Origin: Membranipora membranacea
Lineage: Eukaryota; Bryozoa; Gymnolaemata; Cheilostomatida; Membraniporidae
Direction of reading: 5' to 3'
Assembly (NCBI GenBank): GCA_914767715.1
Contig: OU612071.1
Coordinates: forward strand, 5,084,001-5,148,000
Length of the DNA: 64,000 bases
The position numbers were made by a program, and so were the translations under genes. Positions 23,301 through 64,000 of this stretch are shown here, piece by piece (position 1 is the stretch's first letter; every line of letters starts with the position of its first letter). Below the pieces are notes generated by a model. That model was not told where the DNA came from, ran no database searches, and saw only the letters and a list, made by a program, of their open reading frames with translations.

Positions 23301-24430
23301 TTGCATCTCGTGTGTTAGAGGCTTCCACCTGGAGTCAGAATCCTTTACAGTATCGACAAACTATTTAATCTACGACGCCTGAAGGCCAAGACAATGACAA
23401 CGAAGATCACCGTAACAGAGTTGCAATATGCAGATGATAATGCAATTGTGGCCAATACTGAACACGATCTTCAGCTGGCTATGGATGCTTTTGATTTTGA
23501 ATACTCCACTCTTGGACTTCAGATGAACATCAAGAAAACTCAAGTTCTACATCAGCCCAAACCAGGGATACTGGCAGGCCAAGTCCAGAAGCCCGAAATA
23601 TTAGTGAAAGGTGAGCCACTGAATAATGTGGAAAACTTCACATATCTCAGAAGCTGCCGCTCAGCCAAACCCCACTTAGATAAAGACATAGAGCAGAGAC
23701 TTCAAGCCGCTAGTATTGCGTTTGGACGCCTTCAAAAAAGAGTGTTTGACAACAAAGATCTCTACTCAAGAACAAAGCTGAAAGTGTACAGAGCAGTTAT
23801 CATGCCTACACTCCTCTATGCCTCCGAAGCATGGGTAACCTACAGCAGAAACATAAAGAGTCTAGAAGAGTACCATCAAAGATGCCTTCGCATAATACTA
23901 AATATAAAGAGGACACACAAACGCACCAACAACAGTGTGCATGACCAGTCAGGTATTCCAAGCGTAGAATCTTATATAATATCTAACAAGCGCCGGTGGG
24001 CTGGACATGTGGTGCAAATGGATAGTGATAGGCTGCCCAAACAGATCATGTATGGTGAACTCTGCGACGCTAATAGGAAACAGGGAGGACAACGCAAACC
24101 GTTCAAAGACAATCTAAAACACAATCTTAAACAATGCCATATTAACCCAGATAGATGGGAAGACAACGCTCGAAATCGCCCACTATGGCGCTCCAAAATC
24201 AAAATGGGAGTAAAGATATTTGAAGATGACGGGAAAGAGCACCGTGAGGAGCTTCGTGCTGCTCGCAAACTGAGACAAGACAGCTCATCCATAGACGAGA
24301 GTGACGGCTTCAAATGCACCCATTGTGGAAAAATATGTAGATCAAGGATAGGACTACACAGTCACTCAAGGACCCACAAATAGCAAGCAGACATCAAACA
24401 GAGGGATTGCAAAGAGAGAGAGAGAGTAGT
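20340..24430 (+). mobile_element. Non-LTR retrotransposon (LINE), nearly full length
   Basis: The element has a GC-richer 5' untranslated region (about 20340-21200) with many stops and a near-repeat of the phrase ACGGCCACTC. An endonuclease-reverse transcriptase frame follows, then a short 3' tail ending in an AG-rich run (AAAGAGAGAGAGAGAG near 24410-24426). Its base composition clearly differs from the AT-rich flanks. Both ends are estimated, and no clear target-site duplication was found. The presence of a 5' region and full coding length suggests a recent full-length insertion. The clade is not assigned. Confidence 0.85.
21019..24383 (+). pseudogene. LINE endonuclease-reverse transcriptase, damaged
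   Basis: The N-terminal part is an APE-type endonuclease: AWNVRTM near 21219, LQETRI, GDFNARVG and WTDHRLIRS carry the expected Asn, Glu, Asp/Asn and Asp-His residues. It runs to a TAG at 22027-22029, and the same frame continues through a basic linker into the RT (NGKAIGPDGIPAE). A frameshift lies near 22735-22755. The next frame gives IFKKRDKSLCGNYRGIPLL, CGFRPGRGTVD, AFDSVDRESL, GVKQGCVIAPTLF and the catalytic YADD near 23430. TAG stops at 23082-23084 and 23316-23318 interrupt it. After the RT come a typical ASEAW segment and a C-terminal C2H2 finger (CTHCGKICRSRIGLHSHSRT) before the final TAG. The true start is unclear, since conserved sequence begins about 21208. The protein would copy the element by target-primed reverse transcription, but this copy cannot make it. 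Confidence 0.9.
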
Positions 24431-34600: not shown

Positions 34601-34959
34601 AGAAAAATCACTTGTGGGTCTTCTTCTCTCGCCGGCTGCTAGAGATCGCCTTCGGGTGATTCAGAAATCAGTCGTACAACAGACCATGCCGACCTTGTTC
34701 GTAGGGAGTTGGAGTTCTACCTAAGACTTAATGCTGATGAAAGTGTGGACATTCTGCTGTGGTGGAAGATGCTGCTGAGCTACCGTTGCTAAGTAAGCTA
34801 GCTAGATATGTCTTTACGGCATGTTCAACGTCCGTCACTAGTGAACGACTCTTCAGTTTATCTGGTAACATTGTAACAAAAAAGAGTAACGCACTGAAAC
34901 CTCATCTTGTAAATCAGCTTGTATTCCTAAGTTTTAATAAAGAAATGCTTCCACATTGA
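31640..34959 (+). pseudogene. Degenerate hAT transposase (BED finger to hATC domain)
   Basis: Domains appear in order across several frames and likely introns. The first is an acidic start (ETVDLLGDSSGPEPDD, 31640). A BED zinc finger follows near 32000-32130 (SAVWGFFTIPDNANR, then VKCDLYDAQ) with one cysteine replaced and a stop. Next come a ZBED-like stretch near 32225-32270 and 32585-32740, and the RNase H core start TTDGWSSVNKAPYMSL (33269) with its first Asp. The second-Asp region is AAVTADKAANMCAAV (33450), then VVTRWGSKHKMMERV (34028), and LMFLRIAEVLDPRYLH (34390). The C-terminal hATC dimerisation domain (SERLFSLSGNIVTKKSNAL) is at 34840. Frameshifts near 32150, 32690, 33360 and 34095, a stop near 34196 and another frameshift near 34650 disable it. 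The intact enzyme would bind the ends and move the element by cut-and-paste. Confidence 0.88.
32821..33140. repeat. Poly-C run followed by TTAC-rich simple sequence
   Basis: Eighteen consecutive C at 32821-32838. About 250 bp rich in CTTAC/TTAC words follow from 32880, irregular in spacing. Both lie between decayed transposase segments inside the hAT element. Confidence 0.85.
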
Positions 34960-43200: not shown

Positions 43201-46200
43201 TTGGGCACGTTGGGATTTTCATGGCTCAGATTAAATGTTTTATTTGCTTTTGTCCCACCTCATTTCGCTTTTATCCTACTTCATATGGAAGGGCAACTCG
43301 AGCTCTATCATATCCTAAAATGGCTTGGATATGCGACTATTCGTTCGCTGCCAATTTCAGTTGTAAGGAGGCTCGCTCTTGCATCAAAAAATAAAATATT
43401 GAAAAAGTCTAAGTCTGTTAGATTACTTCCAAACTCAGTTCATTCCAAGGCGCGATTTACATCATGCGAACTACTAGATATGGGCATCCTGGCATTATTT
43501 GAAGGGAACTTATGGCAATTTGAAAATTAAAAAGTTTAACATGGGGGACGTTGGGATTTTTATGGCTCTGATTAAATGTTTTATTTGCTTTTGTCCCACC
43601 TCATCTCGCTTTTATCCTACTGCATATTGAAGGGCAACTCGCGCTCTATCATATCTTAAATTGGTATGGATCTGCGACTATCCATACTTTGCCAGTGCCA
43701 GTTGAAAGGAGGCTCGCTCTTGCATCAAACAATAAAATATTGAAAAATTCAAAGTCTGTTAGATTACTTCCATACTCAAATGAATTCAAGGCCCCATTTA
43801 CGTCATGCAAATTCTCAAATATGGACATCCTGCTATTAGTTGAAGGGAACTTATAGCAATTTGAAAATAAAAAAAAATTTAACATGGGGCACGCTGGGAT
43901 TTTTGCGGCTCTGGTTAAATCTTTTATTTGTTTTTCTCCCACCTCATAACGCTTTTATCCTACTTCATATGGAAGGGCAACTTGCGCTCTATCATATCTT
44001 AAAATGGTTTGGATCTGCGACTATTCGTTCGCTGCCAATTTCAGTTGTAAGGAGGCTCGCTCTTGCATAAAAAAATAAAATATTGAAAAATTCAAAGTCT
44101 GCTAGATTACTTCCAAACTCAGTGCAATTCAAGGCCCCATTTACGTCATGCAAATTCTCAAATATGGGCATTCTGTCATTATTTGAAGGGAACTTATGGC
44201 AAATTGAAAATTAAAAAATTTAACATGGGGCACGTTGGGATTTTTACGGCTCTGATTAAATGTTTTGTTTGCTTTTTCCCACCTCGTGTTGCTTTTATCC
44301 TACTGCATATGGAAGGGCAACTCACGCTCAATCATATCTTAAAGTGGCTTTGATCTGCGCCTATTCATTCTCTGCAAGTCTCAGTTGTAAGGAGGCTTAC
44401 TTACTGTTGCATCAAAAAATAAAATATTGAAAATTCAAAGTCTGTTAGATTTCTTCCAAACTAAAATCAATTCAAGGCCCAACTTTTGTCATGCATATTC
44501 TTAAATATGGGCATCCTGCCATTAGTTGAAGGGAACTTATGGCAATTTGGTATATAGAAAAATTAACATGGGGCACGTTGGGATTCTTACGGCTTTGATT
44601 AAATGTTTTATTTGCTTTTGTCCCACCTCATCTCGCTTTTATCCTACTGCATATTGAAGGGCCACTCGCGCTCTATCATATCTTAAATTGGTATGGATCT
44701 GCGACTATCCATACTTTGCCAGTGCCAGTTGAAAGGAGGCTCACTCTTGTATCAAAAAATAAAATATTGAAAAATTCAAAGTCTGTTAGATTACTTCCAA
44801 ACTCAAATCAATTCAAGGCCCCATTTACGTCATGCAAATTCTTAAATATGGACATCCTGCTATTAGTTGAAGGGAACTTATGGCAATTTGAAAATTAAAA
44901 AATTTTACATGGGGCACGTTGGGATTTTTGCGGCTCTGGTTAAATCTTTTATATGTTTTTCTCCCACCTCTTAACGCTTTTATCCTACTTCATATGGAAG
45001 GGCAACTTGCGCTCTATCATATCTTAAAATGGTATGGATATGCGACTATCCATACTTTGCCAGTCCCAGTTTTAAGGAGGCTCACTCTTGCATCGAAAAA
45101 TGAAATATTGAAAAATTCAAAGTTTGCTAGATTTCTTCCAAACTAAAATCAATCCAAGGCCCAACTTACGTCATGCAAATTCTTAAATATGGGCATCCTG
45201 CCATTAGTTGAAGGGAACTCAGGGCAATTTGAATCTCAAAATAATATAACAATTGGGCACATTGGGATTTTCATGGCCCAGATTAAATGTTTTATTTGCT
45301 TTTGTCCCACCTCATTTCGCTTTTATCCTACTTCATATGGAAGGGCAACTCGAGCTCTATCATATCCTAAAATGGCTTGGATCTGCGACTATTCGTTCGC
45401 TGCCAATTTCAGTTGTAAGGAGGCTCGCTCTTGCATCAAAAAATAAAATATTGAAAAATTCTAAGTCTGTTAGATTACTTCCAAACTCAGTTCATTCCAA
45501 GGCGCGATTTACATCATGCAAACTACTAGATATGGGCATCCTGGCATTATTTGAAGGGAACTTATGGCAATTTGAAAATTAAAAAGTTTAACATGGGGCA
45601 CGTTGGGATTTTTACGGCTCTGATTAAATGTTTTATTTGCTTTTCTCCCACCTCATTTCGCTTTTACCCTACTTCATATGGAAGGGCAACTCGTACTCTA
45701 TCATATCTTAAAGTTGCTTTGATCTGCGACTATTCAATGCCTGCCAGTTCAAGTTTTAAGGAGGCTCACTCTTGCATCAAAAATTTAAATATTGAAAAAA
45801 TTCAAAGACTGCTAGATTCATTCCAAACTCAAATCAATTCAAGGCCCAATTTACGTCATGCAAATTCCTAAATATGGGCATCCTGTTAGTATTTCAAGGG
45901 AACTTATGGTAATTTGAAAATTAAAAAATTTAACAAGGGGCACGTTGGGATTTTTACGGCTCTGATTAAATGTTTTGTTTGCTTTTCTCCCACCTCATCT
46001 CGCTTGTATCCTACTGCATATGGAAGGGCAACTCACACTCTATCATATCTTAAAATGGTATGGATCTGCGACATTGAATTCTTTGCCAGTCCCAGTTTTA
46101 AGGAGGCTCACTCTTGCATCAAAAAATGAAATATTGAAAAATTCAAAGTCTGCTAGATTTCTTCCAAACTAAAATCAATTCAAGGCCCAATTTACGTCAT

Positions 46201-47955
46201 GCAAATTCTTAAATAAGGGCATCCTGCCATTAGTTGAAAGGAACTCATGACAATTTGAAATTTCAAAATAATTTAACAAGGGGCATGTTGGGATTTTTAC
46301 GGCTCTGATTAAATGTTTTGTTTGCTTTTTCCCACCTCGTCTTGCTTTTATCCTACTGCATATGGAAGGGCAACTCACGCTCAATCATATCTTAAAGTGG
46401 CTTTGATCTGCGCCTATTCATTCTCTGCAAGTCTCAGTTGTAAGGAGGCTCACTCTTGCATAAAAAAAAAAAATATTGAAAAATTCAAAGTCTGTTAGAT
46501 TTCTTCCAAACTAAAATCAATTCCAGGCCCAATTTACGTCATGCAAATTCTCAAATATGGGCATCCCGCCATTAGTTGAAGGGAACTTATGGCAATTTGA
46601 AAATTAAAAAATTTAACATGGGGCACGTTGGGATTTTTTGCGGCGCTGATTAAATGTTTTATTTGTTTTTCTCCCACCTCATTACGCTTTTTTCCTACTT
46701 CATATGGAAGGGCAACTCATGCTCTAACATATCCTAAAATGGCTTGGATCTGCGACTATTCGTTCGCTGCCAATTTCAGTTGTAAGGAGGCTCGCTCTTG
46801 CATCAAAAAATAAAATATTGAAAAATTCAAAGTCTGCTAGATTACTTCCAAACTCAGTTCATTTCAAGGCGCGATTTACGTCGTGCAAACTACTAGTTAT
46901 TGGCATCCTGTCATTATTTGAAGGGAACTTATGGCAATTTGAAAATTAAAAAATTTAACATGGGGCACGTTGGGATTTTTGCGGCTCTGATTAAATGTCT
47001 TATTTGTTTTTCTCCCACCTCATCTCGCTTTTATCCTACTTCATATGGAAGGGAAACTCGAGCTCTATCATATCCTAAAATGGCTTGGATCTGCGACTAT
47101 TCGTTCGCTGCCAATTTCAGTTGTAAGGAGGCTCGCTCTTGCATCAAAAAATAAAATATTGAAAAATTCTAAGTCTGTTAGATTACTTCCAAACTCAGTT
47201 CATTCCAAGGCGCGATTTACATCATGCAAACTACTAGATATGGGCATCCTGGCATTATTTGAAGGGAACTTATGGCAATTTGAAAATTAAAAAGTTTAAC
47301 ATGGGGCACGTTGGGATTTTTACGGCTCTGATTAAATGTTTTATTTGCTTTTCTCCCACCTCATTTCGCTTTTACCCTACTTCATATGGAAGGGCAACTC
47401 GTGCTCTATCATATCTTAAAGTTGCTTTGATCTGCGACTATTCATTCCCTGCCAGTCCAAGTTTTAAGGAGGCTCACTCTTGCATCAAAAATTTAAATAT
47501 TGAAAAAATTCAAAGTCTGCTAGATTCATTCCAACCTCAAATCAATTCAAGGCCCAATTTACGTCATGCAAATTCCTAAATATGGGCATCCTGTTAGTAT
47601 TTCAAGGGAACTTATGGCAATTTGAAAATTAAAAAATTTAACAAGGGGCACGTTGGAATTTTTACGGCTCTGATTAAATGTTTTGTTTGCTTTTCTCCCA
47701 CCTCGTCTCGCTTGTATCCTACTTCATATGGAAGGGCAACTTGCGCTCTATCATATCTTAATATGGCTTGGATCTGCGCCTATTCATTTTCTGCCAATCT
47801 CAGTTGTAAGGAGGCTCACTCTTGCATCAAAAAATAAAATATTGAAAAATTCAAAGTCTGTTAGATTACTTCCAAACTCAAATCAATTCGAGGCCTAATT
47901 TACGTCATGCAATTTCCTAGATATGGGCATCCTGCCATTATTTTGAAGGGAACTT
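37286..47955. repeat. Satellite array 2, 341 bp monomer
   Basis: About 31 tandem monomers belong to the same family and orientation as array 1 but to a distinct subfamily (CTGCCAGTCCCAGTTTTAAG against CTGTCAGTCTTAGTTTTCAG in array 1). The spacing is 341 bp (GGAAGG markers at 38041, 38382, 38723 and 39064). One monomer near 39187 has lost about 64 bp. Blocks recur at about 2.73 kb (40470 and 43201) and 2.05 kb (43201 and 45253), that is eight and six monomers. The array stops at CCATTATTTTGAAGGGAACT, then unique sequence starts. Plus-strand frames of 65-109 codons are repeat by-products. Confidence 0.97.
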
Positions 47956-48242
47956 AAAGGAAAAAGACACCTTTGATACATGTTAATCTCAAAATTCAAG
48001 TTGTCTTCTCCTTTCTTGAATTCTGCTAGTGAATAGACCTGTACAGAGCTGTAAAGCATAGTTTTTGGGTTCACCTTCAAACAACCACAGGTTGACCAGG
48101 GAGCAGCCATTACACCAGGCTGGGCCAGTTTGCCATTGCGCATGCTCAGAGGATGCATTGTGGGTAATATTTCATTTTGGAAAGGGAAGCAGCCATACTT
48201 ACTAGAAAGCTCATTCATTGTCTTCAATATTTGCTGCTAAAC
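47956..48242. promoter_or_regulatory. Probable 5' flank of the THAP gene
   Basis: Unique sequence between the satellite edge and the THAP start codon. It contains CATTGCGCATGCTCAG near 48133 (an NRF1-like GCGCATGC word) and GCATTGTGGGTAAT, similar to ZNF143-type ACTACA/TTGTGG words. These suggest a housekeeping-type promoter, by motif only. Confidence 0.3.
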
Positions 48243-51107
48243 ATGTCATGTTGTATTTACAACTGCACTTGGCATCACAGAAAGCACCCAAAAAGGTCCT
48301 TTTTCCAAATACCTAAAAATGATGCTGCTAAGTACTGGAAACTCACCAAAGCAAGGATGTTTGAAGATATGTCAAAATGAAAATTTTTAGAAGAGGGTTA
48401 CAAGACACTCAGAGTCTGTGACCATCACTTTTTACCAGATGATATCAACAGGTATGAAGGAAGGAGAAAGCCTACTCTGAGGCCAATGGCCAAACCATAC
48501 TTCAATCCACCGGTATGTACAGTATGTAGTGCATCTTATGCCTATCATTACTAGCCCACTTGAATTGATTTGGCCTACAACAGTGCTGCATTATTATGCA
48601 TCATGTAATAAAACTTGGAGTGCATAAATTTTGAACTGTAAGAACAAACCCATTGCACCTATTTCATTTTTACTACTGACCTGTTCAAACTGACCTGATC
48701 ACCATGTGATCAGGGAGAATGATCCCTGATCCCATTCTCCCTGATGTGATTGAGCCAAAATGATTCTCTTGTTTGCAAACAAAACATATGAAGGCCAGGC
48801 ATTGGCATTACAAGTAAAGTTGACCTACAAGGTTGATCACTTTTTCAGAAATAGTTTTCTCTAAAGGTAAGCAAAAATGTGAAAACAGCTGTAATAATTA
48901 TGAAGTAGAAATTTCAATCGTAGTAACATAACTAGATATTGCATTCAAATTATTTTTATTACAGGGGATTCCTACTGCAACAACCCCTCGTGACTTTGAC
49001 ACTGGTATCACGTCCTCTGGTCAGATTGGACAGGTGAGTCTGATGGTCTGAAATGTCAAGTAGCATGATAAACTTTGATTTGTACCATTAATCCGTATTG
49101 TGGATACATTGTATGTCAGTAGGGCCTATCATTATCATGTGTAGCAAACTTGCTCATGGCAAAACAAAGCTTCTCCCTTACTGTAAGACATACTGTGCTA
49201 TGATGCTGTGTAGCTAGCTGAAATATCACTGTTTGTTATGTATGTCAAATAGCTCAATCGCAACATGTTGAACTGTTTGTTTTGTTACAGGGATTTACCA
49301 CTACACCCACACCTCAATATCTAGGCGCTAGTCACAATATTTGTACACCGGCAACTTTAACCTCAGGTCAATCTATATCTGTAAGTCAAGTTAACCAAAT
49401 TTATCATTACAAACAAAAAAGGTTTATCTGCAAATTTAACTACTGAGTATGCTTGTTGTGGTGAAATCAACAATTCCAGTTTGCTGATAGGTTGTCGCGG
49501 AAGTGCGACAACTTGGCCCGAGCCAAACTTGGCCTGAGCCAAACTTGGCCCGAGCCAAACTTGGCCCGAGCCAAACTTGGCCCGAGCCAAACTTGACCCG
49601 AGCCAAACTTGGCCCGGGCCAAACCTGGCCCAGGCCAAACTTGGCCCGAGCCAAACTTGGCCCGAGCCAAACTTGGCCCGAGCCAAACTTGGCCCGAGCC
49701 AAACTTGGCCTCAATTAGTAAAACTTGGCCCCATGCAAGAAAACTTGGCCCCAAATATAAAACATGGCCCCAATTAGTGAAACCTAGCCCCAAGTACTGG
49801 AACTTGGCCCCAATTAGTAAAACCTGGCCCCAAGTACTGGAACTTGGCCCCAAATAGTAAAACTTGGCCCCAAATATGAAACTTGGCCCCAAATATGAAA
49901 CTTGGCCCCATATACTGAAATTTGGCCCCAATTAGTAAAACTTGGCCCAAATATGAAACTTGGCCCCAAATATGAAACTTGGCCCCATATACTGAAACAT
50001 GGCCCCAAGTAGTAAAACTTGGCCCTCAGTTCTGAAACTTGGCCCCAGTTAGTAAAACTTGGCCCCATGCAATGAAACTTGGCCCCAAGTAGTAAAACTT
50101 GGCCCCAAATATAAAACTTGGCCCCAAATAGTAAAACTTGGCCCCAAATATGAAACTTGGCCCCATATACTGAAACTTGGCCCCAAGTAGTAAAACTTGG
50201 CCCTCAGTACTGAAACTTGGCCTCAATTAGTAAAAATTGGCCCCGTGTAATGGAACTTGGCCCAAAGTAGTAAAACTTGGCCCTCAGTACTGAAACTTGG
50301 CCTCAATTAGTAAAAATTGGCCCCGTGCAATGGAACTTGGCCCCAAGTAGTAAAACTTGGCCCCAAATATAAAACTCGGCCCCAAGTAGTAAAACTTGGC
50401 CCCATATACTGAAACTTGGCCCCAAGTAGTAAAAATTGGCCCTCAGTACTGAAACTTGGCCTCAATTAGTAAAACTTGGCCCCATGCAATGAAACTTGGC
50501 CCCAAATATAAAACTCGGCCCCAAGTACTGAGACTTGGCCCCAATTAGTAAAACTAGGCCCCAAATATAAAACTTGGCCCCATGTACTGAAACTTGGCCC
50601 CAATTAGTAAAACTTGGCCCCTCATATAAAACTTGGCCCCATGGAATGAAACTTGGCCCCAATTAGTAAAGCTTGGCCCCGGTTAGTAAAACTTGGCCCC
50701 AAATATGAAACTTGGCCCAATTAGTAAAACTAGGCCCCAAATATAAAACTTGGCCCCATGTACTGAAATTTGGCCCCAATTAGTAAAACTTGGCCCCTCA
50801 TATAAAACTTGGCTCCACGGAATGAAACTTGGTCTCAATTATGAAATCTTGGCCCCAAATATAAGACTTGGCCCCATGAAATGAAACTTGGCACCAAATA
50901 GTTAAACTTGGCCCATAATATAAAACCTAGCCCAAGGTGTTGTACTTTCAATTAAAAAGAACAAACATAACAATGTTTCATTACAATTTCACATCGAGAC
51001 AACAAAATGTTATAATATAATAAATGAATATAATAAGCACTATTTTAATATGTAATATCAAACTCTGTTTACAGGCCCGGGACTTCTTTGTTCCTCTTTC
51101 ACAGTGA
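48243..51107 (+). CDS. THAP zinc-finger protein, four exons, with an in-frame TGA
   Basis: The exons are 48243-48512, 48965-49033, 49291-49380 and 51075-51107, all phase 0 with GT-AG borders. The first encodes a C2CH THAP DNA-binding domain: MSCCIYNC gives the first cysteines, then FFQIP and YW, and after a 50-residue spacer VCDHHF supplies the last Cys and His. Spacing fits the family. A TGA at 48378-48380 sits inside the finger (after FEDMSK), with the frame open on both sides. This is either a disabling mutation (CGA or TGG to TGA are single changes) or a sequence error. The second and third exons are Thr/Pro/Ser-rich and start alike (GIPTATTP, GFTTTPTP). The last adds ARDFFVPLSQ and stops; alternatively its pyrimidine-rich start is an acceptor at 51104. 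THAP proteins bind DNA and occur in P-element and other transposases and in host regulators. The gene lies upstream of the USP-FLYWCH-MULE gene on the same strand. Confidence 0.65.
49510..50935. repeat. Intronic minisatellite, TTGGCC-rich, two zones
   Basis: The first zone (49510-49710) has about 12 units of 16 bp, ACTTGGCCCGAGCCAA. Each contains a short palindrome (TTGGC...GCCAA). The second (49711-50935) has longer variable units of about 18-25 bp, in which AACTTGGCCCC alternates with spacers such as AAATATGA, CATACTGA, AATTAGTA and AAGTAGTA. Because 16 is not a multiple of 3, all frames stay open for some distance on both strands. The predicted peptides (for example ARAKFGSGQVWLGPSL) are artefacts of that. 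It lies wholly within the last intron of the THAP gene. Confidence 0.95.
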
Positions 51108-53112
51108 GAAGAGATGGAAACACTTTATAAAACCAGGATTCAACCAAAGTAAATTACGTTGACATCATATGTGCGCAGCAATTCCATTTTACATCTTGCA
51201 TGAGATCACGGAGACGTGACGGTAACTCCACCTGTTTGTGAGTGATAACTCTGGGTAATGAAGAATGGGCTGATCTTTTATATATCCGATATCAAAATAT
51301 ATGTTACCTCTCATGTTGTACGAAGACTAGGGAAATTGATCTGCAAATCTGTTATAATATGACAGTGCATTATCATCCACTATTTAGGCTGTATTTAGTG
51401 ATTGGTCATCCAAATCTGATATATGCTCTACTGGATACTTAATATCTTCCACTCCTGAGGTTGGATAGAGAACACTCAGTCCTGACAGACTATGAGCCAA
51501 ATTGCTATGAATGACACATTGCAACAGTTATGGGGATCTGACTAGCTATCAGCTTATCAGCTATATGTGATACCATAGTATCTTCCAATCACATAGGGTG
51601 ATATCCAGATTGATGGATGTAGATCCTCGGTAAGCCAATCTGCAATATGTGATACCGCAGTATCTTCTACTCACATAGGGTTGTACAGCGATTGCTGGGT
51701 GCCAATCTGTTGAAGATTGTCTTGCTGCAAGTGGACTATAGTGTAGGAGTTTCTTGAACAAATTTTCACCTGCCCAGTTCCTATTATGAAAGACTGTTCT
51801 ACAATATGACCTGGCGATGCAGCTAATTAGTCACGTCATTGACACTATATTTTATATTTCTATTTCTATATTTTCATCTTGATAAAATGAGCTTCAATGT
51901 GGCATATATTAAGTATTACAGACAAAATCAACCTAAATAAATAGTCCATATAATAAGCTGCAATAAACATGAACATGCTAATTGTTTACGCATTTCTGGT
52001 CTGCTTACTGTATGTATATTTCTGGAGTTATCTGTGTTATGCTTATAAGAAGGCAATTCTGAATTCAAACAACAGCCACAGTATTTTGGTTTGTGATAAT
52101 TGCATCATACAATTTTTTGCAAACCTGTGAACTTGCCATGCCAACAAGGGTTACATATTGCTCATGTTTGCATGCTTACTCAGGAATGAAAGCTAAATGT
52201 GTTCTAACCAAGAGTTATTTACGGTTGATGGTGAAATGCAAATTTTTAAAATAAATGATCATGATGGTGATTTGTAAACAACACAAGGAATGATGAAAGT
52301 GATTTGTAGCTTAAAGTTTGGTTATTCATAGATCTACGCATTCTGATTGTAATGGCATGTTTCATTTCACCTTACATTATAAATGGAAAGTTGGCTGGAC
52401 TCCATATATTATAGTGCGTAGAGGCCTAACTCTGCAACCTAGCCACATCAGCATTTCAAGCCCTTTGAGAAATTTGTAGAGTATTATTATGTCAAAAAGT
52501 TATGTAAAGTTAAAACACACTCCATCTTGTTCTCACTGTCGACCTGGTACAGAAAATAAATGGAAAATATCAAACAGTTTATACGCGCAAAGTGTTGCTA
52601 GGGTTATCTGGTACCAAATGTTAACACCCAACTACTTGATGTAGTCAGTAGGATGCTTTCATTTTTCTTGTTATTCTATTCATTACTTGGGCAACATCCA
52701 CTTCAGTAAACAAACTATAATTATTCTTACTGGATTATATGCTTTGATTGTGTTATTTGGAGTTTTCATCTCATCTCCGAAAATATGACTTCTCCATTGG
52801 CTATCAGTTTCTATGAAATTTGGCCTTATAAGCTCCCCTATAATATTTAGCTAATCCATGAGAAAAAAAAACAGAAATTTGATAGTAGGGAGTTAATCAT
52901 CTGACAGATTATTGCATTTCTTATCAACAATTGACACACTGAGAAAGAGGAGGTGAACTCTGGCTAGAGAGCAATATGGCAACCCTTAGGTGCCCTCGGA
53001 GAGGAATTAAGGTATGTATATTGAGACATTTCATTGTTAATATTATAGTATATTATTCAATGACTATCGTATGTTTGATGAGCATTGTTTTAAAGTGTTC
53101 AAACTTGTCAAC
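51108..53112. other. Intergenic or intronic stretch, no gene proven
   Basis: Mostly AT-rich unique sequence. A direct repeat of about 35 bp (ATATGTGATACC...AGTATCTTC...TCACATAGGG) occurs at 51563 and 51645. A short possible first exon, ATGGCAACCCTTAGG to AATTAAG then GTATGT (52977-53015), encodes MATLRCPRRGIK. It could start the USP gene but is too short to prove. Confidence 0.4.
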
Positions 53113-53570
53113 TCATCTGATATGGTAAGGTAAGCCATTGAGTTTGCTTGCAACTACATGATTTAGGTTGTCAAAAGGTACTTTTTTAAGTTTATCATCC
53201 CGTTTAGGAAATCTATTATCTACATTTACAAAGAAATCAGAAATGTATTGAGGTGACAAATTATACATAACTTTGAATATGTAAAGGTAGGTAAAGTGAT
53301 TATTTAAGAGTGGTAACGGTAATATTTTTAAATGCGAACACATTTCGTTTGTTGATATTAAATGATATGGTGTATGGTGAATATTGGCAATAATAGGCAA
53401 TGCTCTTTTTTGTTGCAAAATAATGCGATCTGTGTATGTTGAGGGTGAAAGATTGTAGTAAATATGTATTCCGTATGTTAAATAGCAATGTATAAACAGA
53501 TAATAGAAATGTTTGGCAGAGTAGGGGGTCAGATAGGGTGTGCATAATTATAAAAGATTAGGGTTTTTTA
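53113..53570 (-). mobile_element. LINE fragment, C-terminal RT end
   Basis: The minus strand from about 53560 to 53113 encodes the conserved tail of a non-LTR reverse transcriptase: HFYYLFIHCYLTYGIHIYYN, LQQKRALPIIANIHH and LPYHIR, with one or two frame changes. Only the 3' end is present, as usual for 5'-truncated LINE copies. The family differs from the LINE at 20340-24430. It lies within the presumed 5' part of the USP-FLYWCH-MULE gene. Confidence 0.75.
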
Positions 53571-53636
53571 AACTTTCTCAAATACACTATCACAGTGTAT
53601 GGACCAGGAAAAATTGTCTGTTACATTGAATCCTAA

Positions 53637-53706
53637 AATGAATTAAATAAATAAAGTATCAAATAAATAAATGAATTGAATAAATAAATAAATAAATTAA
53701 ATAAAT
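53637..53706. repeat. (AAAT)n microsatellite
   Basis: Imperfect AAAT/AATA tetranucleotide run of about 70 bp, upstream of the LINE fragment in that fragment's own orientation. Confidence 0.85.
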
Positions 53707-54173
53707 GAAGTAAACAAGATCTGAAACCTCTATGAGTATTTTGGATTTCTTGAATGGTTAATCCAGAATGTGAGTGACTTTTGTAAATTGATCATGATGT
53801 AATGGATTGTTTCTTGAAAGTAATGATTTTGCTGACTTTTAAGAAATAAACATGTATTTTACAGACCATTACCGCTCAATACAATTGATTTACATACGCT
53901 ATTCCATTCAAGAGTTACAATGAACAATTATAAAATATCATAACGAACATCCACTTAACTCCGACCAGATAAAGCCTGCACTCCAAAAAGGACGAAGAGT
54001 TTTGTTTCAGTTTGTTTATGAGAGTTTCTAACAACAGAAATATTTATATATAATAAAGAGTGTAATTTGTATCTTTCAATAGATCATCCGATTTTATCTA
54101 CATTTTTGAATGGGTGATTGTGTGAGAGTAAATATAGTAAAACTCTATGGTTCTCATCATAATCTCTTTTCAG

Positions 54174-56004
54174 TGCGCACATATATAACTTGTTTGATAC
54201 AGTTATGCAGAGCTCTGTGAGATGTTGTGCCTGCAATCACACTAATGTTTTTACAGAAAAATTTTTGTCTCTTCCGTTGAATGTCAAGGTGAGTTATGAG
54301 CGTGGAGCATTTCGTCGTTCATTGTATAAAAGGTATCATCAGAGAAATTTCAATGGGTTTTTCTGGACAGACACTGTCAATTACAGTTATTGTTTTGACC
54401 TTCTGTTAAGTGCCACAGGTTTGGTTGGCCTACCCAGTAGACAGTTAGTGCACTGCAACAAGTCTGAATTCATGTACCTTCAATAGGTGCATAACGAGAG
54501 GCAAGTGATCTACAGATTGGATCCACCTCTTACATCCAATACTGTGCTTACACAATGCCTACAAATGATACTATTGCAATTTCAAGACACTGAGTATTGT
54601 TTATCAATACTGGTGTGATTGACTTCAGTCAGTGCTGCTGCACAATATCTGATAGTGTTGAGAAAATGAATAGAACAACAGTTTCCTGATTGCAACTCAA
54701 AATGTGTTTTGTGTACATTCATATTAACTTTTCAAAGGGGAGAGTTGACAGCACTAGCAATGCACTGAAGAGATTCTGTTCATCATCGATAAGGGATTAC
54801 GATTGCCCGAAGTAAGTGAATCTGAGCCTTGAAAAAAATTTTTGTAAACTGGATATGTCAATCTTATATCTGTGGGGTGTTCCAATAAATGATAAATAAC
54901 AATAAAAAATTTGTGTTGGTCATATGCATTGAATGAAAATTCAAACTACCTTAACCCTCCAGCAAATAAACATTTTTCCAGTACAGTTCATCTAATGCTG
55001 ATTGCTGCTGACAAATATGATACTTTCTCATCCACTCTAGCCATTTTTGGAGCGACGCTGAGCAGATAAATATAATTTAACATTTCAGGCTCTAATTGTA
55101 AGGAGCGATATGTAATCTCAGACAATTTTGAATCATCAGAATATGATAAAGGGTTGAGTCCCAAGTGCATTTACTACCTGCCGTGCCAAGTTAAGATTAT
55201 AACTCACAAAAAACCCATTGCTTTTGCAGCTGTCCACTAAACACTACAGCAGAAAAGATATCAAGTTTTCTGAATTTACCAGACATTCTCGCAGTGACTT
55301 TCAACATCTGTGGCGCAAGTGAGAAAAAGAAGACCTTGATATCAATGCAGCTGAGGATTCAGATAACCGATGTATGTTATTCATTCAATTATGTTGAATA
55401 TTATTCATAGACTACATTTATATACCAGGAATTTCATGAGATACGATCAAAAGTTCCATCTCTCCAAATCACAATTTAAATGAAGCACAATGCACATCTA
55501 CGTACTGTGTAACTAGTTAATGAGCCATACACCGACACACTTATAATTTCAGAGACATGGTCATAGCAGAGGTTACACTCTTTATGCAGCAGTTGTACAC
55601 AAGGGAGCTGATCTGCATTCCGGGCACTACTACTCTATAGTCAAGCATAAGGGCCAATGGTTTGAGATAAATGATGAGAAGGTAAAAATACACTGCACTT
55701 TAAGCGCAGTTTTCAGATCTACGCTGCATGTTACATTTGGAATCAGACTGCACTTTATATATTAATACCCATTAATACCCATATATTAATACCCATTCAA
55801 TGCATAAACAGCATAAATAACCTGCTGGTGATATGATAATTCTGATATGCTAGCAAGGGAAAATCTTCAATCTCCTCATATAATTTTACCGAAGAGAACT
55901 TTTACTCAATATTATTTGTGTGTTTGCAGGTGTCAAGGATATCAGAGCTATCTCTGAAGCGCTCACATCCGTATATGCTCTTTTATGCACCAAACGACAC
56001 ACAG
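54174..56004 (+). CDS. USP (peptidase C19) region of the fusion gene
   Basis: Five exons with matching phases encode the later half of a ubiquitin-specific protease, which cuts ubiquitin from proteins. Seen in order: FDTVMQSSVRCCACNHTNVF with the first CxxC of the zinc ribbon; TSNALKRF; YDCPNCPLN with the second CxxC, split across 54811/55230; LPDILAVTFNICG; YTLYAAVVHKG; SGHYYSIVKHKGQWFEINDE with the catalytic His and the following Asn/Asp; and YMLFYAPNDT, the usual C-terminal strand. The N-terminal Cys box (family pattern GLxNxGNTC) was not found between 51 and 54 kb. It could be on an exon I missed, or lost when the LINE fragment inserted. Without it the enzyme would be inactive. Domain identity is secure from several motifs in the correct order. 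Confidence 0.85.
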
Positions 56005-59000
56005 GTACCCAAAGATGATTGTTAAAAAAATCTTTCTTTACTTTCGGCCGATATCTTGTTAATTGAATTATGTACATGGATATGGAAAGCAATTCATTGT
56101 CGGTGTTAGTGGAATAACTGCCGCTTACACTTCTTATAAGTACACATCCAACACTGAGATAATGTGCATAAAAAATTCATTAGCTCACTTTATTGGTTGG
56201 TGAGCAAGAGCATCAAAAATAAACGTTTAATTATGTGACACCTTTTTGCTTTACATTTTTTCTGTCCATGACGTTTGAAATTGTTAATGAAAGAAGCCAG
56301 ATAGATGAGATCTTGGTGCAAAACTGAAAAGTAATACAACAGTTACAATCATAGGATTTAAGTAACTCCATAGATCATAATTATTTGTAAATTTTTAGAA
56401 CATTTCTTAAAGGTCGCACAGCTAGGAAGGCCACTAAGTGTTCAAACAGAAGAAATAGCAAGCAATCTAGAGCCCAAGAATGATTGACAAAGCTGACCAT
56501 TTCTAGAGTCACAGGGAGTAGTCTCAGGAAGGAAATCTGCCAAAGCACAAACTCAAACACAGCTTTCAAGAGAATCAGCACATCCTAAAGTCGATCATGC
56601 ACAAGAAATGGGAATTATTGGAGACAGGCAAATACATCAGCCAAGCATAACAGAGACCAGCCAAAATCTCATGGTCGCCACCCAGCAACACGGCTCACAG
56701 GTCAAGGTTCCCAGAGATAAGACGTTCAAGGCAAAGAGACACTTGGATGAAACCATGGGCAACTGCTTTCAAGTTCTTGCTCCTCCGATTGAAGCAAAGA
56801 AACAGAAACATGACAATCAAAACATTACAGCTGCAGAGGATGCTCAGAGGAAACAAGACAAGGTTGGGCCAACTAGCGTGGGAAAAAAACAACTTCCAAC
56901 ACTACCATCAGAGACAACTGGCAACAATAGCAGCATTAGCATGTTTTTAGAAGATGACGAAAGCCAGAGAGAGGATCAATATGTATTTTTTGAAAACAGT
57001 CTTGAAGACAGTCAGATTCATACAGATTCGGACAACCTGCTTCTACAGATTCAGAGAGCTGCAGGTAATTCACAAATATACCCAATGCCTTCACAGAGTG
57101 AATTTGAAAGGGAGAGCACTGAGGAGCATGCGCTCCTAGAATCAGGATACAGCCTATATAACAGGTGTCTGCCTACTACCTCAAGTAAACCTGCACCAGT
57201 AGAACCAGCAAAAAACCAGCCAATATCGTCACAGGGAACTATATTACAGAGAGTTGACCAAGTATCAGAAACTAATGACATGCATGCTCGGACTCATTCT
57301 GGGGATCCCAAGTCAGGCAACTTAGTGTTCAAATCAGCGCTGATATCACAGATATATGACAACAACATGATCAGGAGGGGCAGGGAGGGGCAGTCAATAG
57401 GAGGTGAAGATTATCCTAGCTTAATCAATCAGGTAGCCTCAGCCGGAAAGCTTGCAATCAAACACTGCAAACCAACAGTAAAGTCAGCCTTGAGCGTAAT
57501 TTGCCGCCCATACAAATATGCTGTACGATCTACAACTACAGCACTGTAAGCAAATTTTGAATCAATCATTGATGCTTCAATTTTAATACTTTTCAATGGA
57601 CAAGGAAGTTATGTTCATATTACAGTCAGAGGCGTATATTCTAAAAAATTTCACTCACTGACTTTTCAGAGATGAGCATAATAATCGGGCGCAGCCCGAT
57701 CCACACGCCGTAGCCGTAGGCGTTTCTGTACCCCAACACCACAGAAATTTTTGCATATCGGTAGCAAAATAGTGCAAGCAGAGAGGTATTTCAATAGCTC
57801 ACTGAGCTGTTGGGTACTTTCAGGAAACAACTCAATAGCAGTAGAAGATTACGGTAAAAATGCTCCAGTTATAAAGCATCCAATTGAAAAAAAAACTGAC
57901 CTTGATGGGATTCGAACCCACAACAATCTTATTCCAGTGATTATAAGGCAGACGCTCTACACACTGAGCTTTTCAGCCACTCACGGAAATCCGTGGGCCG
58001 TGAGTGCTAATATACGCCACTGATTACAGTAGCTGAGTGTCTAGTGATAAAATTAATTCTATAAATGTTCTATTATTTAGTAAATGCAAATACAATAATC
58101 CATACATAATGCATATACATAGCTATGTACCTTAATTCAACAGCAGTTCAGGATGTCCTAAATATTGTCATTGATGTTATGGAAGTTCAAGAAAAATCTT
58201 ACACAATTTGAAAGTTATGCTTCTTTTTCACAAGGTATAGGAAAACCCATACACTCATACCAACTGGTACAATGACTGAAATACAGGATGACACCGGTAA
58301 GTAACCAATTAATTGATTTAATAGTAGGATGCAAAATTTACCATTAATGAATTTTGATTCATACTTTGCAGAATCATTTTCTGTTGACGGTGAATAATAT
58401 GTTTAACTGTACTGCTTACTGCCTCTTTGCCTACTAGCTGTTCATCTGAATATCTTATTCTGTCCTTTCAATAGGAAAAGAAAAGAAACACGAATTTGAT
58501 AATCAACACGTCATTGCAAATCTTCATGATGCAAACACTGATCTGGAAATTTGGCGTTATCAAGATTCATCACCCTACTCAGATTTACATGAAACAGACG
58601 AAACAATGTAAGTGCATAATCTGCTATTGATTGTATTGAAATTTTAAAAGAAAATAAACAACCTTCAGAATAGGATCATTAGTTGTAATTATTCGCTTTG
58701 CTGTGAGATGCTTGTTCATCTAAATTAAGGATATTATTTTATAGGTTAGCCGAGACCAACAGTTTCTCAGGATACAGCTCAGAAGCAACTGGAGGTATTT
58801 CTCTTAGCAAACCGCAGTTACTCATGATTCGGTTATTCTATCCTCCTATCCATCTTGATTTTCAACCAAACTATGAGCATAAAATAAAGCAACATGAGCG
58901 GTTGTCACAGCACTTCTTTTTAGGGTCATTATAAGAGTCAAAACTATGAAAGTTACTTGAAGAACTGAAGTCATCTGAACAACTGTATTGAAAATGTTTG

Positions 59001-62000
59001 CCATGTAGATGCAGGACAGGATGGTTTTTAATTCGTATCAGCAAGAACTAAGGTGAAACAAGACCAATCTCCAAATATTCCTAAACACAAGGAACTGTCT
59101 GGTACGTTCAATGACTGGTGGAAGAAGGAAACTTTATTGTAATAAAAGATTAGACCATAACTGCAATGACCTCATCTTTTTGCACAGTTTTCAATAGATA
59201 TTAAAACTTACATGATGTTTGGTTTTATTTATAACATTGATATGTATCATTACATTATCGTAACTGTATATAAGTCAATGACATTGGCTCATTGATCAAT
59301 TTATAACTTTCTACAAATAGGTTTGGCTGCAAAGACAGGTTCTTTTGTTGAAGCGACAAGTCACAGACAAATCAAAGCAACAACTAGACAACGTGGAGGT
59401 ATTAAATTTGTTATTTTGTTTATCACAGATAAAAAAGCTCTTTGGATCACGGGCTCTGTCAAGTGAACAGTATGGGTAGACCTGTCTGATGAGCAAGTCA
59501 GTTTCTAAGACATGATATTGTTTTATGTAAATCTTTCAATTTGTCCTGTTTTATTCTTTTTTCCAATATTGTCAATTGCACCAGAATCTCTTTCATAGAA
59601 AAAGAAAAAGATGCAATGCAACTATCGGAGGAGGCCAGACTTGACGATGATAGGTAAAAATGTTGAGAAACATCATATTCTAAATGTCTGTAACATATAT
59701 TATAATCGCTGACAAGAAGATTCAACAAGGATTCAGCATCAGGATCTAGCTTTAGTAATACTTTAATACCTCATTTATAAGGCACCGGCCTTATAAGTGA
59801 AGCACCTTCCTTGGAAAATTTAAAAATGCTTCAGTTATGTGGCACCCCACAGCTACAAGGCATCCCTTTGGAAAAAAAACTGACCTCGATCGGATCCAAA
59901 CCCACAACATTGTGTTCACAAGGTAGGCGCTCTGTCTACTGAGCTATGCAGCTTTCCTTTTCAAACCAAAGTTTTGGTCTAAGTCAAATATAAAGATGCT
60001 TCAAATAGGTGCTATAGATGCTATAATATAGGCGCATATTATGCTCCACTCTCTAAGGCGCCTTCATCTATAAGGCACGGGCCTTATAGGTGAGGTATAG
60101 CGGTAATATTGTCACTATTCTCGGGTCAGAGCAGTTGCTCACAGGCAAAACACAAAAGTGTTGCAGAATCTTCATACTTTGTCAGAATGGAAAATTAATT
60201 ATCTTTATCATAGCTTCATAAATACAAAAAATGATTAAACAGCTAAATCCTACGCACATACATACTGCATAACATATATCATAATGCACATTTCAGGCAA
60301 TGTATAGATATAGTTATCGATGGTCCGAGATTTGCGTTAGTGAGAGCAGCGACCCAGCGCAAAGGGGATTGCTTAATCGATCGACATCTAGGACATCGCT
60401 ATGTTAAGAAGAACAGGGATTGTGAGGTACTTCAGCAACATCCAACTACCGAACATAAACATATTTTCCTGATTTTGGAATAAGCTGCCAATAAAATGCA
60501 ACTGACAAATTTAATAATAAAACCATGAATTGTACTGAAATTGTCTGTTGGCTTGACATGACTACTGTATACTTTCCTGATCTCTTGATAGGAAGTGGTA
60601 GTTTCATGGCGTTGTGCGAGGTATGGCAAGCCAACAAAGTGTAAAGCAATGGTGAAAGAGTCGAATGGAGCATTCAATATAAGTAGAGGGGATCACAATC
60701 ATCCTGCCTATAGGAAACCACTAGAAGGTGCTCGCATCGCTAGAGAGGTATGGTAGTTGACACTATAGGCAAACTATAAAGTTTGTCTGCTCTCTGACAT
60801 TAATAATCTATGAATGTTACAGATTACTTGCATTGAAACAGATGTGTTTATCTGATAGTGTGATGTTTGTTTATTGATTCTACCAGGCAGAAAAGTTAGT
60901 AAATGAGGATACGTTTGCCCCGACATCAACAATTGTTGATAGGGCTGTTAAGAACCTTTATGAAGAAACTGCAGTTATACCCCAAGCCGCAAATCGCAGA
61001 AACTTGCGCCGTTTGATACAAAGGAGAAGGGCCAACACAGTACAGTCACAGCCAGCCAACTTAAGTTTTAAGGTATATGGCTCATCAAAAGAATTGGTAT
61101 AGAATTATGCATGTTACACTTACTCAGGATGAAATGTGTCAGTCAATAGAGGTGTCATATTATGTGCATAGTTGCTCTTGCTTTGCAGAGAGACTGTTTT
61201 GAAATTGAATTGTTTACCAAACTTGAGCATTGCTGTGTCTGTAGGTCTTAACAAGCTGATCAACAATGTTTGAAAATCCTTTTCCCAACGATTTATAACA
61301 GGCGGCTCACAAACCACAAGTTTATGTTCAACTTGGTTTCCATCAACATTAAAAAGATTTATATCTAATTCTGCACAGTTACTCATTTGACAATGTTTTA
61401 TCTTTAAGATGCCTAACTCCCCCGGATTCCTGGTTGGAGATGTGAGAGGGCCATCAGGGGGCAGAGCACTCATTTTTGCCACGAATAGGCAGCTCAGACT
61501 TCTTACAAACTCGGAAATATGGTAGTTTGAGTGTTACTGCAAAGTAACAATGCAGATATATTTTATAGTCAGATCTCATAATACCGAACGTTATAATACC
61601 GAAATACCGATGGTGTATCTTGCTATGCAAATCAACCAGACCGAGGGCAGGAAGCACCAAAGTTTGAAATGGCAATAATTGAAGGAACCATTGCCACCGA
61701 ACCTGAGTCTAGGAATTCAAGTGGTTCACTGTTGTCTGTAGAAGAGAATCACTACATTGTATGGGATGCGTGGGCCTTGGTAATTTAGAAAGTCATCCTG
61801 TCTCAACAAACAGCATCTATCGATGCAGCCGGCCAAATATTGAATTTGCATGTTTGCAGGTCTTCTTCCTTTTGTCACCCCTTTTCATAATATTGTTGTA
61901 TTTTCAATATATTAGTTTCTTTCTTCAGCATGACTAATTTCAATTGTAGGGGTATAGATGGAACCTTCAAGACAGTTGTCAAACCTTTCCAACAACTTCT

Positions 62001-64000
62001 GACAATAAACTGCTTTGTTAGAACAGCCAATGGGGGAAAGCAACTACCCTCCGTATATGTCCTTATGTCTTCAAAGCAGCAGGCAGACTATTTGATGGTT
62101 AGATATCCTGATTAATTAGCGACAGGTCACCCACTGATCAGACTATCTCGTTTAAGATCACGCCATTATTAATTGCAAACCAGTTAATATGTTAAAGTTG
62201 AACTAAAATTATTCAGAAATTTCTCCTGTGCAGGTCGTCAAGTGGTTACCTGATCCTATTCTTAACTACTTTCCTCGGATTAGGCAATTGAAGAGCCTCA
62301 CTTTAATGACCATGCTAATTATTCTCTATAGCAGGATTGATCGCTTGCGTGTAAGACACTTTGGTCTGTGGCTGACTTTCAGATTTAATGCAGAGGAAGT
62401 AGGATTTTTGTGCAATTGTTGACATTTTTTTTTCCTTTAACGATTAACCACTCCAAACTAGTAGCTTGGTATCAAATAATTCTTGACATCTTCTAATATA
62501 ATTACTATACTATTCCACTGTATTTATTTGAGACTGTGTGTTTAAATTCGGGTTTGGTGTATTTTAAAGAATGCCTGACTGCTTTCCAATTATATTTTCC
62601 ATTATGCCTTCTTGTAGGTGTTCAATGAGTTAAAGAAAATCGCCAATCTCAATGTTCAAACCATCATCATCGATTTTGAGAAAGGTACACAATTAAATTG
62701 TTCGTGAAAGAATATCATAACACACCTGACTGAGCTGTAAATCTCATTTGTCTGTTTAGGGATCTGGACTGCTGCTTCAGCAGCGTTTCAAGGAGTACAT
62801 ATAGTCGGATGTAATTTCCATTTCCAGAAATGCATCTGGCGCAGGGTGCAAAAGCTTGGTAAGAAGTCAACGTTATGCATAAATAACTATGACAATGATT
62901 AATAATAATATTATGATTATAAATATGCAATAAACCGATATATTAATAATATATTAAATATCGAATTTTAACTTCTTATGAAGTTATTTAGTCATAATTG
63001 AGAAAGCACAAAAAGTCATCGCCGAGTTTCTCTACAAGGTTAGTAACCACGAAAAAAGAAAAACTTTATACTAGCATAACTTCTCACATCAGCTCAACCT
63101 CAAAAACTTGATAGTGCATGGTTAATGTTACAGGTCTCGCATCAGGCTATCGCCATCACCACAACACTCGTCGTGTTTGTGGGTTTCTGTGGGGGCTCTC
63201 CTACCTACCAGTCCACTTGATTCAGGAAGCTTATCGCTATGTGGTCGCGGAGAACAACGAGCCTCACTTTAGGCAGTTGTTTGAGTATTTTGAGATTACA
63301 TGGCTCAATGGAAGATTTGAGCCAAAATTCTGGAGTGTGTATCGACAGGCGATAAGGACAAATAACTCTCTGGAAGGTAACTGCCATTCAATTTCACAAT
63401 TCGTTTAAGGTTGTTCATATTTGAACAAAAAACCTTGTAAAGCAATGTTCACTTGATCAGAAAGGTTCATCACTCAGTATGCAATGAGCAACAACCAACA
63501 TTTTGTTTCTGTGTTACAAAAATCTATGCTTTAAATCATAAAGTTAAAACTATAGTAGCGCCTTTTGGTATATGACATATTGCTTAGGTAGTAGAAGAAT
63601 TGCTAATAGCATGACAATGGAAATTTACTTGAATGAAGCTCATCGGTACAACTGAATTCATAGGCTATCTAAAATATTGCCACAAGTCCTATTGGAGGTA
63701 TCTGGTTAATCAAGAGACAGTGCTCTTGATTAGCCCAAGACATCCAATATGATACCAAATATTGGGAGGCGTTACTATAGCTTGAAAGTAAATAATAATC
63801 ACAGGCTTCTTTAAAACAGGAGCTATGTGTGCCTATTGAATAATATTGTTTCCGTTTTCAGGCTGGCATAACAAGTTTAATCGCCAGGTGAGAGTCGATA
63901 AGCCCCCAACATTTATGTTGATTGAAGAGTTACGGAAGGAGTCATCTTCTGTAGAACTGGAGCTGAAAGAGATTTCAGCAGGCTTTAGCAGTCTAAATAA
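54174..64000 (+). CDS. USP-FLYWCH-MULE fusion gene, about 20 exons, runs off the window
   Basis: The exons are 54174-54288, 54738-54811, 55230-55371, 55553-55681, 55930-56004, 56413 or 56515-57545, 58235-58296, 58475-58607, 58745-58794, 59042-59101, 59321-59398, 59599-59653, 60297-60426, 60592-60747, 60887-61072, about 61930-62097, 62618-62684, 62760-62858, 63134-63376 and 63862 onward. Nearly all borders are GT-AG, and split codons match at every listed junction except the one across 61073-61929. In order the product has the C-terminal half of a USP, a polar Q/S-rich linker, charged small exons, a FLYWCH finger and a MULE DDE domain. The 57545 to 58235 join (split Leu codon) links the linker to the transposase side. 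The 5' end and the end of the transposase are missing. It could be an active transposon, a relic or a domesticated gene. Two adjacent genes remain possible. Confidence 0.7.
56413..57545 (+). CDS. Low-complexity linker exon of the fusion gene
   Basis: A single large exon rich in Gln, Ser, Glu and Lys with no recognised domain (for example SAKAQTQTQL, EAKKQKHDNQ, PSETTGNNSSISMFLEDDE). Starting at the acceptor before 56413 gives two TGA codons at 56485-56487 and 56494-56496. Starting at the acceptor before 56515 (AGAGTCACAG) keeps phase 0 and avoids both. The frame then runs to TAA at 57547-57549, but GTAAGC at 57546 is a good donor and the next exon completes the split codon. The linker could connect the protease and transposase modules. 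If the donor is not used, this is a separate gene ending at 57549. Confidence 0.6.
57546..58234. other. Intron with a hAT-type MITE
   Basis: Apart from the MITE at 57627-58022 this intron holds only AT-rich sequence. A GC-rich stretch near 57688-57725 includes the stem-loop TCGGGCGCAGCCCGA. Confidence 0.6.
57627..58022. mobile_element. hAT-type MITE with 8 bp duplication and a tRNA-like core
   Basis: 396 bp. The ends are CAGAGGCGTATATT (57627-57640) and the complement of CAGTGGCGTATATT (58009-58022). The exact 8 bp duplication ATTACAGT lies at 57619-57626 and 58023-58030. CAGxGGCG termini with 8 bp duplications are typical of hAT. The minus strand of 57897-57975 reads like a tRNA: GCTCAGTGTGTAGAGC (A-box region), then GGGTTCGAATCCC (B box). 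The arms do not fold as a real tRNA. Confidence 0.88.
58235..61072 (+). CDS. FLYWCH zinc-finger region of the fusion gene
   Basis: Nine exons in consistent phase. The first six are short and encode charged, low-complexity sequence (KEKKHEFDNQHVIANLHD, KVKQDQSPNIPKHKELSG, EKEKDAMQLSEEARLDDD). Exons 60297-60426 and 60592-60747 encode the finger: LGHRYVKKNRDCE, VVVSWRCARYGKPTKCKAMV, GDHNHPAYRKP, that is W-R-C, C-K-A and the H-N-H ligands expected of FLYWCH/WRKY-like domains. Exon 60887-61072 gives the basic helix-rich stretch that follows FLYWCH in MULE transposases (IPQAANRRNLRRLIQRRRAN). FLYWCH fingers bind DNA, and in transposases they recognise the element ends. FLYWCH next to MULE is a known pairing. 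Confidence 0.85.
59769..60095. mobile_element. MITE with TA duplication and a tRNA-like core
   Basis: 327 bp, in an intron of the fusion gene. The ends begin CCTCATTTATAAGGCACCGG, and the right end reads CCTCACCTATAAGGCCCGTG on the other strand. TA flanks both sides (59767-59768, 60096-60097), as for Tc1/mariner-type elements. The minus strand of 59878-59958 has a tRNA-like A box (TAGCTCAGTAGACAGAGC) and a degenerate B box (GGGTTTGGATCC). About 120 bp of the core resembles the hAT-type MITE at 57627-58022. Confidence 0.75.
61073..61929. other. Gap in the fusion gene model, possible inserted sequence
   Basis: The exon encoding the start of the transposase core, expected before DGTFK, was not found here. 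A minus-strand frame of 120 codons (61482-61120) has a plausible composition but no motif I recognise. A plus-strand frame at 61594-61797 (FEMAIIEGTIATEPESRNSS) is also unidentified. These may be parts of an unrelated insertion that displaced or replaced the missing exon. Confidence 0.4.
61930..64000 (+). CDS. MULE transposase domain of the fusion gene (C-terminus beyond window)
   Basis: Exons about 61930-62097, 62618-62684, 62760-62858, 63134-63376 and 63862 onward. The motifs are in the order of the MULE domain: GIDGTFKTVVKPFQQL with the first catalytic Asp; LPSVYVLMSSKQQADYLM; VFNELKKI then TIIIDFEKG with the second Asp; GCNFHFQKCIWRRVQKLG, the conserved C-x-FH block; FLWGLSYLPVHLIQEAY; and NNSLEGWHNKFNRQV with the Glu expected of the DDE triad. 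All three acidic residues are visible, so this part looks functional. The donor after 62097 (ATG then GTTAGA) is weak. The exon start at 61930 or 61951 is uncertain. The enzyme would cut and join element ends if active. Confidence 0.88.

Follow-up and report, generated by a model that had tools for sequence, protein, structure and literature searches.

A ubiquitin-specific protease fragment next to a FLYWCH-MULE transposase gene in a bryozoan genome

Introduction

Does a 64,000-nucleotide stretch of the Membranipora membranacea genome (contig OU612071.1, positions 5,084,001 to 5,148,000 of the forward strand; hereafter the window) hold one gene in which a ubiquitin-specific protease (USP) is fused to a FLYWCH-MULE transposase, or two genes that merely lie side by side? 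MULEs capture gene fragments, and an earlier interpretation of the letters alone (the sequence-only reading) had proposed a fusion, by capture or as a domesticated gene, in which the protease could protect the transposase from turnover or counter a host silencer. Our analysis favors, with a probability of roughly 0.58, two neighbouring coding units on the plus strand: a FLYWCH-MULE gene beside a USP fragment that was stranded or captured, or else broken. Separate units are favored because the splice sites at the two junctions between the halves score lowest in the chain, the MULE part has its own candidate start codon behind an in-frame stop, the USP part has its own stop followed by an AATAAA signal, the half with the catalytic cysteine was not recognized in the window, and the protein searches gave no fused relative. 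The first four of these observations also leave the idea of a working protease borne by a transposase unsupported.

Results

The plus strand from 54174 to the window edge can be drawn as a chain of 20 exons, chosen by eye, with all 19 junctions in phase and 1074 codons uninterrupted by a stop. An hmmscan of this chain revealed three blocks: exons 1–5 match a USP, exons 6–11 give no match, and exons 12–20 match FLYWCH and MULE domains. The block in between consists of one open exon of 1031 bp and five short exons (Table 1). This is the layout of the sequence-only reading, which had recognized a USP zinc ribbon (CxxC ... CxxC), His box (SGHYY) and C-terminal YMLFY motif, a linker, a FLYWCH finger and MULE DDE motifs in that order on this strand, and profile searches matched all three domains (PF00443, PF04500 and PF10551). 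The same reading had found split codons to match at all junctions but one; in the chain drawn here all 19 match, but this does not confirm that the two halves belong to one gene.

Splice-site scores speak against a joining of the halves. Donor and acceptor matrices were trained on the 12 introns with both sides fixed by homology (four in the USP block, eight in the FLYWCH-MULE block), and the seven others were scored with them. The homology-supported introns score 7.6–19.2 (leave-one-out) and the five linker junctions 7–8 to 11–12 score 7.8–17.5. The two joining junctions, 5–6 (56004/56515) at 4.6 and 6–7 (57545/58235) at 2.5, are the lowest two of the 19 and lie under all 12 supported introns; approximately 17% and 28% of random GT+AG pairs, respectively, reach such scores. 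In-phase splicing was discarded as proof of a fusion, because 17 of the 44 donor–acceptor pairs from exon 5 to exon 6 are in phase. Exon 6 has seven GT donors within its final 150 nt, and two of them suit exons 7, 9 and 12.

The first block is the C-terminal half of a USP, covering profile positions 120–254 of 254 in PF00443 (E 6.9e-23), and the closest solved chains are named USP36 (best, E 5.1e-13), USP21 and ubiquitin hydrolase 8. In a 9-row alignment the zinc-ribbon cysteines C17, C20 and C61 are invariant, as are G134, H135 and Y136 of the His box and the following D151; C64 was read from the sequence. The USP strand motif named LKRF, present in most alignment rows, is missing from this half, which has TFNIC in its place. 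Exon 1 opens behind an acceptor site, shortly downstream of an in-frame stop at 54160. The frame of exon 5 continues to a stop codon of its own at 56023, and an AATAAA follows at 56218.

A box for the catalytic cysteine was sought across the window. A motif scan of both strands gave two minus-strand matches only, and a looser scan of the plus strand gave six; all were judged noise by eye. A hidden Markov model (HMM) of seven USP catalytic domains, searched against 2744 stop-to-stop open reading frames (ORFs) of at least 15 residues and complemented by tblastn, gave only noise for the N-terminal half among the matches listed. One candidate from this search, at 22030–22824 (E 1.1), was rejected as it sits between the endonuclease and reverse-transcriptase ORFs of a retrotransposon without long terminal repeats (non-LTR). 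As to sensitivity, the HMM recovered accepted USP exons 4, 1 and 5 at E 5.5e-12, 0.0024 and 0.0063; a strongly diverged cysteine exon could nevertheless escape it, since exon 3 scored at noise level and exon 2 was absent from the best 30 rows. The USP assignment of the earlier reading is thus upheld by its domain motifs, whereas a whole protease is not, as a C-terminal half is all that was recognized in the window and no cysteine box accompanies it. Judged from its residues, the half as seen cannot be a working protease, as it would lack the catalytic cysteine.

The third block carries the MULE transposase domain (PF10551, E 1.9e-12) behind a FLYWCH finger just above its cut-off (PF04500, E 2.3e-5, 24.9 bits versus 23.6), which rises to 26.2 bits (E 8.9e-6) when the N-terminal region is added to the query. 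Protein search found ten relatives of the MULE part, nine of which were aligned (24–34% identity); P0003 was left out, its length and scores being those of P0002, with which it was not compared. In this 10-row alignment D199, D264 and E381, which we take to be the DDE catalytic residues, are invariant together with C285 and H288, presumably the C/H insertion. As far as the window reaches, the core of the transposase therefore looks intact. Six of the ten relatives were scanned for further domains. The best, P0001, has a PHD finger and a FLYWCH finger before the MULE domain, both under the Pfam cut-offs; P0002, P0004, P0006 and P0007 are FLYWCH-MULE proteins above them, and P0008 has a FLYWCH match below. 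The FLYWCH-bearing relatives measure 400–481 amino acids, except P0001 (649).

Some relatives lie on contigs so short (649 amino acids of P0001 on 2154 bp, 461 on 1752 bp and 460 on 1555 bp) that they have no room for sizeable introns. The same FLYWCH-MULE region is here split over nine exons (60297–64000), which would fit either a gene long resident in its host or a family of elements rich in introns. Terminal inverted repeats, which the sequence-only reading had suggested looking for around the locus, were not found at 22 nt or more (seed 11) within 51000–64000; the element continues beyond 64000. Behind an in-frame stop at 58209, the ATG at 58272 (A at −3) is a candidate start for this block. 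The short exons at 58235–59653 most likely encode the N-terminal part of the MULE protein, since junctions 7–8 to 11–12 score within the range of supported introns. Two 60-bp direct repeats, 83% identical, lie in introns and show a tRNA-like B-box on the minus strand by eye; they are perhaps remnants of short interspersed elements.

The linker exon itself is almost surely coding and not a chance frame: it runs for 343 codons, and none of 200 first-order Markov simulations, each 10.5 kb long, gave an ORF of more than 183. Codon preference points the same way, the model frame being the best of three in five of the six linker exons (the exception is exon 9), and in four of the five short ones. 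This supports their coding status but cannot assign them to either gene.

Searches for a protein with the same arrangement, of limited sensitivity, found none among the relatives. The full chain had no match among 3597 candidates. According to the precomputed Pfam column, none of the ten USP relatives (from 225 candidates, within length limits derived from the full chain) contains a MULE domain and none of the ten MULE relatives a USP domain. Several of the USP relatives are USP36-like or plant USPs by name. Another, P0020, is a single ORF of 1739 amino acids on a 7-kb contig, with the USP domain mid-protein (profile 2–254 of 254) and no other Pfam match at E 0.5; it is possibly the ORF of another mobile element. 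Searches of viral and prokaryote genome contigs with the MULE part, and of viral contigs with the USP part, gave no relative and carry little weight, since few animal sequences are expected there. Rfam gave no match. Neither the protein searches nor the literature, covered mostly without subscription journals, yielded a USP-MULE fusion.

Table 1. Coding features of the locus and other elements of the window (positions count from the first letter of the window).
Feature	Coordinates	Strand	Basis or remarks
USP exons 1–5	54174–54288, 54738–54811, 55230–55371, 55553–55681, 55930–56004	+	PF00443
Read-through of exon 5 to its own stop	56005–56025	+	VPKDDC, stop 56023; AATAAA 56218
Long ORF	56497–57549	+	Modelled exon 56515–57545; first in-frame ATG 56608; stop 57547; few known domains
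In-frame stop and candidate start of a self-contained FLYWCH-MULE gene	58209–58274	+	Stop 58209; ATG 58272 (A at −3)
Short linker exons	58235–58296, 58475–58607, 58745–58794, 59321–59398, 59599–59653	+	Splice scores, codon preference
FLYWCH exons	60297–60426, 60592–60747	+	PF04500
MULE exons	60887–61072, 61409–61521, 61950–62097, 62618–62684, 62760–62858, 63134–63376, 63862–64000	+	PF10551; continues past window
Tandem arrays, two, large	1–11233, 37291–47956		Repeat of ~341–343 bp
Non-LTR retrotransposon	21016–24383	+	Endonuclease PF03372 E 1.8e-10; reverse transcriptase pieces PF00078 E 1.5e-5, below cut-off
Three open frames upstream of the hAT region	33318–34656		No Pfam match; probably the same transposase
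hAT dimerisation region	34741–34956	+	PF05699 E 4.4e-11
THAP zinc finger	48249–48500	+	PF05485 E 1.9e-8; one in-frame stop
Minisatellites, dense, 16 bp and 20 bp	49510–50914		Open in several frames
Intronic direct repeats, 60 bp	57866–57925, 59850–59909		83% identical

Repeats and transposon pieces crowd the window. The non-LTR retrotransposon has a C-terminal C2H2-like motif by eye and is interrupted by a few stops, and the THAP zinc finger has the satellite arrays on one side and the USP half on the other.

Discussion

We infer separate transcription units for the two halves and, for the USP piece, an origin as a captured or a broken gene; the crowding of repeats and transposon pieces was counted for this reading. 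The FLYWCH-MULE gene, a Phantom-like transposase, would start at about 58272 and run past the window edge, its FLYWCH finger predicted to bind the element ends and its RNase H-like DDE domain to cut DNA. Upstream, the USP half (fingers, palm, His and Asp, no Cys) would end at its stop at 56023, or else at 57547 if a disordered tail belongs to it, and alone could not cleave ubiquitin. It would most likely be a fragment of a host gene stranded or carried beside the MULE, or otherwise the end portion of a host USP gene that upstream repeats had disrupted.

Several observations pull the other way. The frames are intact in both the USP and the MULE blocks, and the whole 20-exon chain is readable as one open frame. 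The splice scores derive from only 12 training introns, and the choice of the linker exons by eye favors their scores. At least one further exon would be needed upstream of USP exon 1, because this exon begins at an acceptor behind the in-frame stop at 54160, and no such exon was found. The 37 codons ahead of ATG 56608 have a preference of 0.17 per codon, like the rest of the exon (0.136), hinting at an exon spliced in from upstream, that is, a USP with a tail ending at 57547. A gene ending there would do so without a canonical poly(A) signal, because neither AATAAA nor ATTAAA occurs between 56218 and 58653. In addition, BLASTP weakly matched the linker exon to a region of a USP8 (P0017) outside its USP domain (E 8e-4, 23% identity), a match that is probably compositional.

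The strongest competitor, though unlikely, is a single gene encoding a USP-linker-FLYWCH-MULE fusion, either borne by a transposon or domesticated. The shared strand and order, the stop-free in-phase chain and the coding-like preference ahead of ATG 56608 all argue for it, and transposons that bear deubiquitinases are already described in published sections of PMC2836005, PMC6446971 and PMC9741609. Against it, the weakest splice sites fall exactly at the two joining junctions, where in-phase pairs are easy to come by, neither the full-chain candidates nor the ten USP matches include a fused relative, and no cysteine box was recognized in the window. Were the halves fused, the USP part would bind ubiquitin, or would cleave it if a cysteine-box exon lay outside the window or escaped recognition, and might in this way protect the transposase or target chromatin or repair factors that carry ubiquitin. 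Within such a protein, recognition of ubiquitin would be the likelier role than cleavage, as the visible sequence is without the catalytic cysteine. The specific version in which a C-terminal USP half, a long disordered linker and FLYWCH-MULE form one multi-exon gene, with the USP as a ubiquitin-recognition module and not a protease, is a shade less likely still.

Distinctly less credible is the proposal that the coding sequence of the MULE gene begins with exon 56515–57545, at ATG 56608, with the USP half alone as the separate unit. This ATG carries a G at both −3 and +4, the phase of the donor at 57545 suits exons 7, 9 and 12, and the USP unit would already have ended with the AATAAA at 56218, but the proposal depends on junction 6–7, the weakest of all (2.5), and the coding-like preference extends ahead of its ATG. 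It also sits poorly with the length of the FLYWCH-bearing relatives, P0001 excepted. A chance meeting of an old MULE with an unrelated, degenerate USP pseudogene, both non-functional, would suit the missing USP half, the lost LKRF and the repeat-rich window, but is very improbable given that no homology-defined exon has a broken frame or lacks usable splice sites and that the aligned MULE catalytic residues are kept.

Under the favored two-unit arrangement, the closest known counterparts of the transposase are the Phantom-type FLYWCH-MULE elements; what follows on published systems refers to sections of the cited papers. Tm1-A of root-knot nematodes has the same N-terminal FLYWCH followed by a MULE DDE domain (PMC3169594), and FLYWCH is listed for some Phantom elements (PMC6446971); the present gene differs in having at least nine exons, several of the relatives found being almost without intron room. 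Co-options of FLYWCH in animals are described in PMC10027918, the main text of which does not contain the word ubiquitin. For the USP half, the best solved matches are USP36-type deubiquitinases, from which it differs in that the N-terminal cysteine half and LKRF were not found.

Proteases of the ubiquitin and SUMO type accompany animal DDE transposases elsewhere: Hydra and lancelet have Mutator elements with Ulp1, Ginger1 has OTU or Ulp1 at its C terminus (PMC2836005), and OTU is listed for the cnidarian MULE group MuDR-6_HM (PMC6446971). These share with our locus the tie of a cysteine protease to such a transposase, whereas here the protease is of the C19 family, is seen as a half only, and its joining to the transposase is putative. 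The Trichomonas protein XP_001314237.1, reported as one protein with transposase_11 and Peptidase C19 (PMC2836005), is alike in pairing a USP-family domain with a DNA transposase but differs in its non-MULE transposase family and protist host. Further afield, Helitrons carry tegument-like deubiquitinases, some of them domesticated (PMC9741609), and work on giant transposons describes OTU in Helentrons (PMC6431247). With Ulp1, OTU and C19 all in print beside transposases (PMC2836005, PMC6446971), the novelty first claimed for this locus was too strong. As far as these sections go, a confirmed fusion would make USP the third protease family, after Ulp1 and OTU, reported in MULE transposons, and would support repeated recruitment of ubiquitin and SUMO pathway domains by transposons.

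If the halves are not fused, the locus illustrates that two adjacent genes are readily bridged on paper by exons that keep the frame, and becomes a candidate for the carriage of a gene fragment by an animal MULE. It would then resemble the Pack-MULEs and the Kaonashi (KIU) elements, plant MULEs that carry pieces of host genes, including captured Ulp1 (PMC13317346); those are plant elements with an Ulp1-type protease, whereas here the ends of the element lie outside the view and the piece beside the transposase is a USP half in an animal.

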